Below, in pieces: positions 997 through 16,085 of a stretch of 24,000 nucleotides of DNA (position 1 is the first letter of the stretch; each line of letters begins with the position of its first letter). The position numbers and the translations under genes were made by a program. This DNA comes from a virus. The notes under the pieces are model-generated. The model was not told where the DNA came from. It saw nothing but the letters and a program-made list of their open reading frames with translations, and did no database searches. The stretch lies in the IMG/VR virus record IMGVR_UViG_3300031227_002958, positions 1 through 24,000 of that record; one strand, given 5' to 3'.

Positions 997-1166
997 CCTT
1001 TTCCCCTCCCTATGCGACTTGGGTGTGGTTTCTTGATGACGAATGCCGGTGCTGTCCAGATCCGCTTCGTAATGAGGTAATGGCACGCCGGGCATGGTGG
1101 CATTGCAGTCTGATTTTCAGACTCGAATACCTTGTGGCAACGCATGCATTCATGGTCTGCTGTCAT
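993..1166 (-). CDS. Small zinc-ribbon protein
   Basis: A 57-residue protein read directly from the minus strand. Its ATG at 1166 overlaps the stop of the deoxyribosyltransferase-like gene (ATGA), and its TGA at 993-995 overlaps the ATG of the membrane-protein gene, so the gene fits exactly between its neighbours. It has two CxxC knuckles, CMRC at about residues 7-10 and CPAC at 25-28, the spacing expected for a rubredoxin-like or zinc-ribbon fold, and a basic tail. Such phage proteins often bind nucleic acid or another protein; nothing here says which. The motif and the perfect couplings at both ends make it likely real despite its size. Confidence 0.7.
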   Translation of the reverse strand: MTADHECMRCHKVFESENQTAMPPCPACHYLITKRIWTAPAFVIKKPHPSRIGRGKG

Positions 1167-1624
1167 GCGTCTTCCCCGATAATGGTCCGGGCGATCGCAA
1201 TGGCCACATCAAGGTCAGCAACTGCATAGTCTATCGCTTCGTCGAGCATGTCATGTTGATGGATATTCAGGACAGCAACAGGAAGTACTACGACGATCGG
1301 AATCCTCCGTTCGTAGGCCCATGCTATCTCCATAACTGTGCCAATACTGATTTTTTCAGCCTCTTTGAAATTAACGAGCAGGACGCTGGCGTTAACGCAG
1401 TCGTTATGGTCACGGCATAGAATACCACGGGCACTCGCCATCGGGCTGGACAATCCTGAATTATCGACGATCTCGTCAGGTGCCCAGAAGTTCTTAGTAC
1501 GCATTGGACTCTTACATTTGGTCGTTTCAGAATCTAGGCACCTCTGGGCATATTCACGCCAGCCGGTACAACCGCGATATGTACACCCAGTGATCGGGCC
1601 CGCTAGGTAAACTGAATGCTTCAT
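1163..1624 (-). CDS. Nucleoside 2-deoxyribosyltransferase-like protein
   Basis: A 153-residue protein starting at ATG 1624, overlapping the deoC stop (ATGA). It has the family pattern of nucleoside 2-deoxyribosyltransferases and the related DNPH1/Rcl deoxynucleotide N-hydrolases: an N-terminal strand and loop VYLAGPITG (5-13), an RDHNDC block (71-76) leading into ASVLLVNF, and the catalytic-Glu segment GTVMEIAWAY (95-104, Glu99). Members either exchange bases between deoxynucleosides or hydrolyse deoxynucleoside monophosphates to free base and deoxyribose-5-phosphate. Placement directly after a deoxyribose-phosphate aldolase favours an activity that yields or uses deoxyribose-5-phosphate, which is inference. 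The insertion between residues 14 and 60, with several Cys, is longer than I expect for the family. The family call is good; the choice between transferase and hydrolase is open. Confidence 0.8.
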   Translation of the reverse strand: MKHSVYLAGPITGCTYRGCTGWREYAQRCLDSETTKCKSPMRTKNFWAPDEIVDNSGLSSPMASARGILCRDHNDCVNASVLLVNFKEAEKISIGTVMEIAWAYERRIPIVVVLPVAVLNIHQHDMLDEAIDYAVADLDVAIAIARTIIGEDA

Positions 1625-2391
1625 TGCTTTGCTCCTGGGTCTAAGACTGAGATGTGAGATGTTCCGACAATACTTGCTCCGCAAGCTAACAAATGGCATG
1701 CCTGTCCGTAGGTATGGATTCCGCCGGCAGCCTTCACGCCGCAGCGAGTGCCCTTTGTGGCCTCAACCAGGAGCTTGACGTTGCCAGGGTGAGTCATATC
1801 CTGGTTGGCATACCCAGTCCCGGTTTTAACGTAGTCTACACCCTCTCTCGCGGCCTTATGGGCAATCTCCGACAATTGATGCGAATCCCAGTAGACGGCC
1901 TCTAGGATAATCTTCAGGACGGCATTGCGGCTATGGCAGAGGTCGACAAGCAGTGGAAGTTCTCCGCCTTCGCCCGTTAGGATCTCACGATCGCCCCCAA
2001 GATACCGTCCATAATTCAAGACAATGTCAAGTTCCCGGGCACCTTGTTCAATAGCGATCCGACCTTCATGGAGTTTGATCATCCTGAGATTCGTGCCATG
2101 TGGATACCCCACTGCAACGCTAACCGATTCAGCATGGTCCGCCGCGAACGAGACATTGATTGGGGCCACACAGATGGAGCGCATGTTATGCTTCTCGACA
2201 AGAGCGCAAGCATCCTTGATATCCCAAATCGAGGCCGTAGGCTTGAGGCATGCGAAGTCGATCTTCGTCGCCAGTTCTTCGGGATCGATCTTCGGTATGT
2301 TAACCTCATTGGGGTTAGGATCAAGCTTACTGGCCGGCCCGAACGGGGTCATTGCCGCCGGGTCGTAGGGAAGTGGCTCATTAGGATTCAT
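1621..2391 (-). CDS. deoC: Deoxyribose-phosphate aldolase
   Basis: A 256-residue class I aldolase that would cleave 2-deoxyribose-5-phosphate to glyceraldehyde-3-phosphate and acetaldehyde, reversibly. The DeoC signatures are all present: the KIDFACLKP start of the barrel (43-51), VAVGYPHG (92-99), ELDIVLNYG with Asp122 (120-128), LKIILEAV with Lys160, the Schiff-base lysine block VDYVKTGTGYA with Lys189, and GVKAAGGI with Lys220. Nothing catalytic is missing. ATG at 2391 gives an 11-base overlap with the upstream gene; ATGs at 2433 and 2418 are possible but lack a better ribosome site. About 40 residues before the barrel are rich in Pro and Asn and look like a non-catalytic extension, so a later start (ATG at about 2352) is also possible. 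It lies between a MazG-like dNTP hydrolase and a deoxyribosyltransferase-like gene. DeoC is unusual in phage genomes as far as I know. Confidence 0.92.
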   Translation of the reverse strand: MNPNEPLPYDPAAMTPFGPASKLDPNPNEVNIPKIDPEELATKIDFACLKPTASIWDIKDACALVEKHNMRSICVAPINVSFAADHAESVSVAVGYPHGTNLRMIKLHEGRIAIEQGARELDIVLNYGRYLGGDREILTGEGGELPLLVDLCHSRNAVLKIILEAVYWDSHQLSEIAHKAAREGVDYVKTGTGYANQDMTHPGNVKLLVEATKGTRCGVKAAGGIHTYGQACHLLACGASIVGTSHISVLDPGAKQ

Positions 2392-2815
2392 ATTCTGCGG
2401 TACTCTCTTCTGGGTCATAGGTTGGCATGTCATTGAGACAGTCGGGAAGGACGCCGCTCTTCTCCATTTCCTCGAAATGAATTATGCTCATGGCATTGAA
2501 GCAAACGGCCGCTAGATGATCTTCGTTTCTCATGCCCATCATATATTCTAACACATGGCGGAACATGGAAGCTACGCAGCGGGAATGCGACATCCCCTTC
2601 TCCCAGTTACGTTCCTGGTATTTCTTCGCCCCCTTCCTGTATAGTTCACCAATCCGCCAGAGAGCGAATGGCGAAATTAGATCTGGACGGGGCTTGTTCA
2701 CGGCTGAGTCTCGAACTGCCATGTCCTCGCCTTGCGATTCTACCGTATCGCCGCACTCTAGTCCGAATTCATTGCCTAGCCGTGCAGTTCTGACTTCGTC
2801 TCTGGTTTCATCCAT
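2381..2815 (-). CDS. MazG-like dATP/dGTP diphosphohydrolase family protein
   Basis: A 144-residue protein. ATG at 2815 is preferred over ATG 2833 because an AGAGGAA ribosome site lies 6 bases before it. After a polar N-terminal 40 residues comes the phage dATP/dGTP diphosphohydrolase domain (formerly DUF5664): KPRPDLIS (41-48), KGAKKYQERNW (61-71), a conserved Arg-His pair (86-87), and EDHLAAVCFNA (98-108). All-alpha MazG-type enzymes convert dNTPs to dNMP and pyrophosphate. The MazZ enzyme of 2-aminoadenine (Z) phages is a related pyrophosphatase, but no PurZ is visible in this window, so a Z-genome cannot be claimed. The acidic C-terminal 25 residues look unstructured. The neighbouring DeoC and deoxyribosyltransferase-like genes suggest it feeds dNMP into a breakdown or exchange route. 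Confidence 0.75.
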   Translation of the reverse strand: MDETRDEVRTARLGNEFGLECGDTVESQGEDMAVRDSAVNKPRPDLISPFALWRIGELYRKGAKKYQERNWEKGMSHSRCVASMFRHVLEYMMGMRNEDHLAAVCFNAMSIIHFEEMEKSGVLPDCLNDMPTYDPEESTAEYES

Positions 2816-14913: not shown

Positions 14914-15501
14914 CTAGGCTTTAGGTTTTAGCGGGGCACATGGGGCATAGATTACCGCCACAGCCCAACCGTTACTGTTGTGCCATTCCGACATAAATCT
15001 CTTACGTGACATCCACTGGATCCTATCGATGTGGTTATTGTCAATGATGGCCGCATGCTCATTGTCAAAATGTACAAGGGCAACCATATGCTTTCCGCCC
15101 CTACAGGTGACTGCACAGCCTCGCCGTGTTCTACACGCCCATTCAAGGAACTTGGCATCCCCATTGACAGTGTATGCATAGCGCACACCCTCTTCGTCCA
15201 TTTTCTGGTGAAGTCCATTAGCCGATTCTCCACCGGTGTATGTCTTACGCCAGTACCATGCCAATGCATGCCGATTTTGCCAACGCATGAGAGCCACTAC
15301 CGAGGCATGGACGCATGAGCCACCTCCCCAGTTAGCTTCCCGGTTACACATGGGGATGTTAATGACTGGACGCTCGGCAACGACCGGCGTAATAGGATTA
15401 ACAGGTAGTTCTAATCCATTACTAACAGTGGTGGCCTCATGCAGGATCGGGGCACCTGCCAGGCAAAGCAAGAGTACGGCAGCGAATACTGAGAACTTCA
15501 T
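14914..15501 (-). CDS. Secreted papain-like cysteine peptidase, C39-like
   Basis: A 195-residue protein starting at ATG 15501, coupled (ATGA) to the stop of the NlpC/P60-type gene; the longer frame from 15570 lies inside that gene. Residues 1-18 form a signal peptide (KFSVFAAVLLLCLAG). The catalytic Cys is Cys63 in WGGGSCVHASVVALMRW (58-74), the His is His138 in GGKHMVALVHF (135-145), and Asp154/Asn155 in AAIIDNNHID follow, which is the papain-like order Cys-His-Asp/Asn. The pattern fits the peptidase C39-like group. C39 proper cleaves double-glycine leader peptides, but the stand-alone secreted forms are uncharacterised and may cut peptidoglycan peptides or proteins. Extra Cys residues suggest disulfides. 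It lies next to another amidase-type enzyme and thioredoxin-fold proteins. Confidence 0.75.
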   Translation of the reverse strand: MKFSVFAAVLLLCLAGAPILHEATTVSNGLELPVNPITPVVAERPVINIPMCNREANWGGGSCVHASVVALMRWQNRHALAWYWRKTYTGGESANGLHQKMDEEGVRYAYTVNGDAKFLEWACRTRRGCAVTCRGGKHMVALVHFDNEHAAIIDNNHIDRIQWMSRKRFMSEWHNSNGWAVAVIYAPCAPLKPKA

Positions 15502-16085
15502 TTGATCCTCCGTGCTGGATAGACAAGGCCATATAATTGAAGCCGTCGTATAAGTTTGTTCGGGGACCACCGAGCCGGCTTTGTCGTAGGAAATATACCG
15601 ATGTTGGAGAGTGCCGCAGCAACTAGCTCGGAGCAGAAGACAGCCGATAGATCTTCTCTACTCCATAGCGATTTGATCCATGGAAAAATAAGGCCAGCCG
15701 ATCCCGCTGCCCCGACAGGATCGTACTGGGTATAGATCATATGTATAAGGAAGGACGTTAGTCGTCTATTTTCATGCGAATAGAGCGGGCGATGCAGGCG
15801 ATAGTAATAGATTTTGCCATCGTATGCGGCCACTGCCGAATCAAAGTCATGGGCTTGAACACCGGGGGTAATATCTTTGGTGACCTTACATGGCTCATTG
15901 CAAAGCGTCGTTGACTCGTACAAGTGACTTTCCTGAGAGCTGGTCTCACCGATGATTCCGATATGACTCAAGCTGCTCTGTGGCCAGCCGTAGGTCGCCA
16001 GGTTCACGGCAGCACTCATTAAGCCGTGCCCGCTGAAGCCGATAACGTCACCCGGCCAAGGCTCTCTGGTCAATTCCTGTATCAT
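15498..16085 (-). CDS. Permuted NlpC/P60-type amidase (YiiX/YaeF-like)
   Basis: A 195-residue protein, the first gene after the long gap at 16086-16185. It shows the permuted papain order: PGDVIGFSG (11-19), His41 in SLSHIGII (38-45), Glu57 in LYEST, and the nucleophile Cys151 in AVFCSELVAAAL (148-159), with SPNKLI (174-179) near the end. This is the layout of YiiX/YaeF and phage orthopoxvirus-G6R-like proteins, cysteine amidases of the NlpC/P60 superfamily. No signal peptide or membrane segment is seen, so it either acts in the virion or in the cytoplasm, or is released by a holin. Its stop overlaps the start of the C39-like peptidase. It may be an endolysin or a tail-tip hydrolase, and the substrate could be peptidoglycan, a lipid or a protein conjugate. 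Confidence 0.8.
   Translation of the reverse strand: MIQELTREPWPGDVIGFSGHGLMSAAVNLATYGWPQSSLSHIGIIGETSSQESHLYESTTLCNEPCKVTKDITPGVQAHDFDSAVAAYDGKIYYYRLHRPLYSHENRRLTSFLIHMIYTQYDPVGAAGSAGLIFPWIKSLWSREDLSAVFCSELVAAALSNIGIFPTTKPARWSPNKLIRRLQLYGLVYPARRIK

Follow-up and report, generated by a model that had tools for sequence, protein, structure and literature searches.

Phages are expected to conserve deoxynucleotides, and the question raised by this locus is why a virus would carry three overlapping genes that appear suited to taking them apart. The window, i.e., the whole stretch of DNA analyzed here, is a 24,000-base IMG/VR virus record, a fragment in which genes continue beyond either end. In it, a PF18909 (DUF5664) gene, deoC and a gene of the nucleoside 2-deoxyribosyltransferase (NDT) superfamily follow one another in this order on the minus strand. 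A preliminary description of this DNA had reported three consecutive overlapping genes, and its coordinates, order and overlaps all proved correct:

2381..2815, minus strand: PF18909/DUF5664 gene, 144 aa, ATG start, assigned by Pfam match
1621..2391, minus strand: deoC, 256 aa from the ATG at 2391 or 270 aa from the ATG at 2433
1163..1624, minus strand: NDT/DNPH1-superfamily gene of family N1, 153 aa, ATG at 1624, assigned by structural model and residues
1621..1624, minus strand: ATGA stop/start overlap of deoC and the NDT gene, 4 bases, read from the sequence
2381..2391, minus strand: overlap of the 3' end of the PF18909 gene with the start of deoC, from the ORF coordinates

The ATGA overlap likely couples the translation of deoC and the NDT gene. 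We consider it reasonably probable that, in a tailed phage, these genes work together as a cassette for dismantling nucleotides, its likeliest use being to control or clean the dNTP pool. A viral pair predicted to burn deoxynucleotides past recovery points to a poorly understood selection on this pool.

A complete deoxyribose-phosphate aldolase

The deoC product passes the NCBIfam TIGR00126 deoC equivalog model (124.1 bits, cut-off 117.3) and matches solved DeoC structures in the PDB with E-values down to 1e-30. The residue roles tested, namely the Schiff-base lysine, the second lysine and the aspartate, are all filled in the window protein, and D136, K174, K203 and K234 (270-aa numbering) are kept in 66/66 non-redundant viral DeoCs. 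These are the Asp122, Lys160, Lys189 and Lys220 on which the enzyme had been called complete, numbers that are valid with the start at ATG 2391, and that assessment stands. The protein is thus predicted to split deoxyribose 5-phosphate (dR5P) into glyceraldehyde-3-phosphate and acetaldehyde.

The equivalog match and the full set of catalytic residues are shared with the bacterial DeoC of deo operons. Unlike the latter, viral DeoC has no nucleoside phosphorylase partner: PF01048 was found in 0/38 viral records with DeoC, which means that these phages do not carry the classical deo route. Whereas deo-operon DeoC is fed from deoxyribose-1-phosphate, the feed of the viral enzyme, if any, would be dNMP by way of an N-glycosidase.

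Searches at the DNA level and with single proteins failed to find anything related to the cassette or to DeoC, and family alignments were needed. A DeoC profile search then gave 80 viral loci, or 81 counting the window, and the viral DeoCs tested have no family in PHROGs. No isolated phage with a DeoC–NDT pair was found. The rarity in phages claimed earlier thus holds for isolated phages and fails for uncultivated ones. Most DeoC matches in "phage" GenBank records, mostly unannotated, look like contamination by bacterial DNA; in one of these records (L005), DeoC sits among ordinary bacterial genes.

A candidate deoxynucleotide N-glycosidase

Against Pfam, the third protein falls below the gathering scores of both PF05014 (E 4e-5, 24.1 bits against 28.8) and PF15891 (21.9 bits against 30), and a relative (L255:2908-3498) scores 32.3 bits in the same test. 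An AlphaFold model built on a 58-sequence alignment has a pLDDT of 92 and a pTM of 0.88, and Foldseek matches it to NDT, MilB and DNPH1 structures in the PDB with E-values down to 2e-6. According to this model, the window protein has the alpha/beta NDT/MilB/DNPH1 fold, and is overall at least as close to transferases as to DNPH1. The best PDB profile matches of family N1 are YtoQ, BlsM, Enterococcus NDT and the CMP N-glycosidases BcmB and MilB.

Y6, D75 and E99 are invariant in 71/71 N1 sequences, which bears out the catalytic Glu99 noted previously, and S93 is present in 70/71. DNPH1 uses a Y24-D80-E104 triad, with S98 holding the phosphate, and MilB has S97 at the phosphate-binding place and Phe17 where DNPH1 has Tyr (PMC10603095). 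At that site Tyr goes with deoxyribose and Phe with ribose, and the F17Y change shifts MilB toward deoxyribose (PMC10603095). The N1 spacings equal those of DNPH1 (24 residues from Asp to Glu and 6 from Ser to Glu). A Ser rather than an Asp at the 5'-phosphate/5'-OH site, six residues before the Glu, is a DNPH1-type feature, and S93 occupies this place. From Tyr6, Ser93 and the triad spacing, N1 is predicted to act on 2'-deoxynucleoside 5'-monophosphates, as a 2'-deoxynucleoside 5'-phosphate N-glycosidase converting dNMP to base and dR5P.

Human and rat DNPH1, a sanitizer of the nucleotide pool, thus resembles N1 in the Tyr-Asp-Glu triad, the Ser at the 5'-phosphate and the fold. The window protein differs from it in being only about 14% identical, in lying in an operon with an aldolase and in having a substrate assigned by prediction. 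The CMP (hydroxymethyl-CMP) N-glycosidases MilB, BlsM and BcmB share the SxGTxxEIxWA motif with N1, but the Tyr of N1 is replaced by Phe in MilB and BlsM, which marks a preference for ribose over deoxyribose. Speaking against a simple hydrolase is P40, likewise invariant in N1, a possible counterpart of the transferase-type proline under discussion in DmtZ. The seven NDT genes tested from positions downstream of viral DeoC all match PHROG 19940, the match being weak for one (E 0.016); PHROGs annotates this family as of unknown function. A likely function can be offered for phrog_19940 proteins and for the viral DeoCs that have no PHROGs family.

The neighborhood of N1 points in the same direction. 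Its commonest metabolic neighbor, a cluster present at 11 loci, is deoxynucleotide monophosphate kinase, and PF18909, DeoC, ThyX and ribonucleotide reductase were also seen, a company that places N1 at the dNMP level.

Linkage and origin of the DeoC-NDT pair

The firm finding of this analysis is the DeoC-NDT module. An NDT-superfamily gene lies directly downstream and on the same strand in 57/81 viral DeoC loci, a count that becomes 44/62 once near-copies are removed, and the two genes overlap by 1–4 nt in 40 of the 57 pairs. Three kinds of downstream gene occur: N1, a second family termed N2, and a marine variant. Among cellular DeoC loci, the 80 closest have neither an NDT gene nor a PF18909 gene within 5 kb. 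The DeoC-NDT coupling is real, and since the pairing recurs in viruses and is not seen beside bacterial DeoC, it looks like a genuine, undescribed viral device; no publication on DeoC together with NDT in phages was found in the open-license literature.

In the DeoC tree, 31 NDT-linked viral DeoCs, that of the window among them, group together (SH-aLRT 89), the exact place of the window protein within the group being unsure because its own branch is long. This group stands beside DeoCs of Planctomycetota, Verrucomicrobiota, Kiritimatiellota and some Bacteroidota (99), and the marine T4-like group and the L154 group fall elsewhere in the tree. As separate DeoC clades carry the pair, it was probably assembled independently at least three times. 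The sister position to DeoCs of Planctomycetota and Verrucomicrobiota suggests that the gene of the window's clade was probably acquired from a host catabolic gene; judged by this tree, the host of the phage probably belongs to Planctomycetota or a related group. Most N1 phages lack DeoC (48/50 records), which counts against the cassette.

Two variations on the arrangement were seen among the viral loci. In L124 and L011/L125, DeoC is followed by two NDT-superfamily genes, N1 and then N2, in one run. In LR756501, a 735-kb uncultivated phage, DeoC and NDT are both present and unlinked.

The PF18909 protein and its precedent in 2-aminoadenine phages

The upstream protein matches Pfam dGTP_diPhyd_N with an E-value of 7.8e-19 (67.9 bits, cut-off 27). 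It had been described as a "MazG-like" hydrolase of the dATP/dGTP diphosphohydrolase family; it belongs to this family (PF18909, DUF5664), and kinship with MazG was not confirmed. The model is all-helical (pLDDT 82), and its matches to S-2L MazZ and to MazG are not significant (E > 2, the best MazZ match being at 2.4). MazG itself (PF03819) is rare, occurring in 3/38 records, and a search for DUF550 (PF04447) gave no match, the control likewise matching nowhere.

Within the subfamily, K41, R43, Y66, N70, W71, R86, H87, H100 and N107 are invariant and E98 is nearly so, E98 and H100 being conserved within the window protein's own large subfamily. The acidic motif, GExxD...HL in most of the NDT-adjoining relatives, is shortened to GMRNEDHL in the window protein. 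A first step from dNTP to dNMP is likely for this protein, though less secure than the DeoC-NDT module itself, and with the shortened motif it is the weakest of the three predicted steps.

Precedent for such a step comes from phages with 2-aminoadenine DNA. The DUF5664 enzyme of phage Wayne converts dATP, dUTP and dGTP to the corresponding dNMPs in vitro, and DmtZ, a phage enzyme of the NDT superfamily, cleaves dAMP into adenine and dR5P and also transfers dR5P onto 2-aminoadenine (Poubanne et al., 2026; PMC12884076). The DmtZ-DutZ/DUF5664 system of the PurZ0 phages, described in Gordonia phage Ghobes and Arthrobacter phage Wayne (PMC12884076), resembles the locus studied here in combining a PF18909/DUF5664 dNTP diphosphohydrolase with a dNMP-acting NDT-superfamily enzyme of the same fold. 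It differs in that PurZ is not among the proteins scanned in the window, a 24-kb fragment with the rest of the genome outside it, and in that the window adds a tightly linked DeoC. E. coli DeoC served as the coupling enzyme in the DmtZ assay (PMC12884076), whereas the window phage encodes a DeoC of its own. DmtZ has Thr97 and Asn77, while the window protein, from another subfamily, has the phosphate-site Ser and Asp75. The viral Foldseek matches of the NDT model include the Ghobes protein. Judged by Y6, D12, P57, N77 and E103, gp53 of Gordonia phage Ghobes (L169:42692-43177) is the DmtZ of that study (PMC12884076); its GenBank annotation reads deoxyuridine triphosphatase.

The association of PF18909 with the other two genes is looser than that between DeoC and NDT. 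All three co-occur in about 20 other viral genomes, and the possibility that they are never found together elsewhere is thereby dismissed. In G031, the one genome examined closely and a member of the main DeoC clade, all are present and the PF18909 protein is 57% identical to that of the window, but the gene lies about 25 kb from DeoC-NDT. Window-type PF18909 accompanies DeoC in 19/23 contigs of at least 50 kb and distant PF18909 in 0/29, and PF18909 is found in 22/35 DeoC-bearing records against 7/45 other N1 records, counts that are inflated by kinship among the phages and, in the main clade, confounded by common descent. In several further contigs PF18909 lies immediately next to N1, and in the marine phages searched it was not found. 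Two viral proteins in BFVD (A0A6J5LQ71 and A0A6J5S4N9) whose names refer to the PF18909 domain were matched by the NDT model, which suggests PF18909-NDT fusion proteins; neither this fusion nor one of DeoC with NDT was found in our own contig set. In L008, a HAD-like protein (L008:15081-15680) with no Pfam match at 0.001 follows the PF18909 gene where the window has DeoC-NDT.

Proposed pathway and alternative explanations

From the observed gene order, protein families, active-site residues, fold and recurrent linkage, we infer the enzyme activities, direction of flux, target base and purpose of the cassette as follows. The PF18909 enzyme would convert dNTP to dNMP and pyrophosphate, the NDT-superfamily enzyme would cut the N-glycosidic bond of the dNMP to release the free base and dR5P, and DeoC would split the latter into glyceraldehyde-3-phosphate and acetaldehyde, a cleavage that would make the loss of the nucleotide irreversible and remove a reactive aldehyde. 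The likeliest use of such a pathway would be to control or clean the dNTP pool during replication by removing selected or unwanted deoxynucleotides. The same chain had been proposed in the preliminary description. It is the favored explanation, in keeping with the Tyr, the Ser and the triad spacing, with the recurrent DeoC-NDT coupling and with activities published for phage enzymes related to two of the three products (PMC12884076). It would extend the route from dATP through dAMP to adenine of the Z-genome phages to many phages without PurZ. A bolder form, which we regard as unlikely, is that DeoC and an NDT-superfamily N-glycosidase are a virus-specific module, put together independently three or more times, which irreversibly destroys deoxynucleotides, and that large marine phages may inject it from the virion as infection begins, to purge or detoxify nucleotides or a defense based on them.

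It is also conceivable, if rather unlikely, that the locus serves base exchange, with the NDT-like enzyme carrying dR5P over from a dNMP to a different base and DeoC supplying or draining dR5P, so that a special nucleotide is made or salvaged as DmtZ does with 2-aminoadenine. DmtZ carries out both hydrolysis and transfer (PMC12884076), and the dNMP kinases encoded beside N1 could phosphorylate an exchanged dNMP. One of the relatives, contig G049 (IMGVR_UViG_3300019458_000027, loci L160 and L345), provides an example that suits this explanation: a PurA-family gene (72992-74134, minus strand) lies about 2.5 kb upstream of its DeoC and NDT genes on the same strand, and the encoded protein has GGQYGSEGKG with Ser for the catalytic Asp, which is the PurZ signature, so that G049 is likely a 2-aminoadenine phage with a DeoC-NDT pair. 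However, PurZ/PurA (PF00709) is missing from 49/50 DeoC/NDT records and the thymidylate-synthase/hydroxymethylase family from 39/40. A known modified base thus fails as a general explanation, 2-aminoadenine and hydroxymethyl-pyrimidine DNA were both rejected in that role, and the suggestion that the cassette generally removes competitors of a modified base is not upheld. Moreover, DeoC would destroy the sugar donor, and free dR5P is not known as a donor in the NDT family.

The remaining explanations are weaker than base exchange. That the cassette removes a dNMP or other nucleotide signal of host defense, with DeoC clearing the product, seems quite improbable to us, and what speaks for it comes from a marine group. 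In marine T4-like contigs (L144-L167, e.g., L145:2749-7189), as well as in L154 and L004, DeoC and NDT adjoin structural genes and carry short N-terminal peptides (such as MRELIKKILKEG and MLNEEIKRIKSLM) similar to those of neighboring enzymes, namely superoxide dismutase, an AAA kinase and a HAD phosphatase. These peptides look similar to the capsid-targeting sequences found on packaged phage proteins. Such a resemblance would suggest delivery together with the DNA, and hints at packaging of DeoC and NDT in the virion in the marine group. Yet the window proteins carry no such peptide, and there is no defense gene or signal to which the cassette could be tied. Scavenging of carbon or energy, in which NDT makes dR5P and DeoC feeds the sugar of host DNA to glycolysis as an auxiliary metabolic gene, we hold to be very improbable. 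The products of DeoC do enter central metabolism, the probable origin of the window's DeoC clade in a host catabolic gene is compatible with such a role, and close cellular relatives of the protein lie among dehydrogenase genes. Phages normally reuse host nucleotides, however, and neither nucleoside phosphorylases nor further families of sugar catabolism were seen alongside; the earlier idea that carbon is drawn from host DNA finds no support.

A chance grouping of unrelated genes in an accessory region is scarcely credible for the locus as a whole. The region is indeed mosaic, as is the window phage over positions 3-24000: the primase, RadD-like helicase, RusA and exonuclease match L008/L017/L075, and it is to G031/G002 that the metallophosphoesterase, DeoC, PF18909 and the genes at 14914-16085 correspond. 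Three or more separately derived clades nevertheless show the order, strand and overlap of DeoC and NDT, and the absence of the pair from the cellular loci leads us to reject chance adjacency for this pair; such a grouping is thus largely refuted for DeoC-NDT, and possible for PF18909. With replication genes drawn from another lineage than its accessory genes, the window phage constitutes a useful independent case of PF18909 occurring together with DeoC, better than the main clade.

Two further observations concern other genes. G043 (L250-L255), a contig with a DeoC-N1-N2 run, encodes two ParB-domain proteins, an Amidoligase_2 protein, a radical SAM protein and a DNA methylase, possibly a set of base hypermodification genes; no thymidylate-synthase homologue was found in this contig. 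In the window itself, the protein encoded at 10474-11043 matches an HflK model (E 1.6e-10) and has a homologue in G002.
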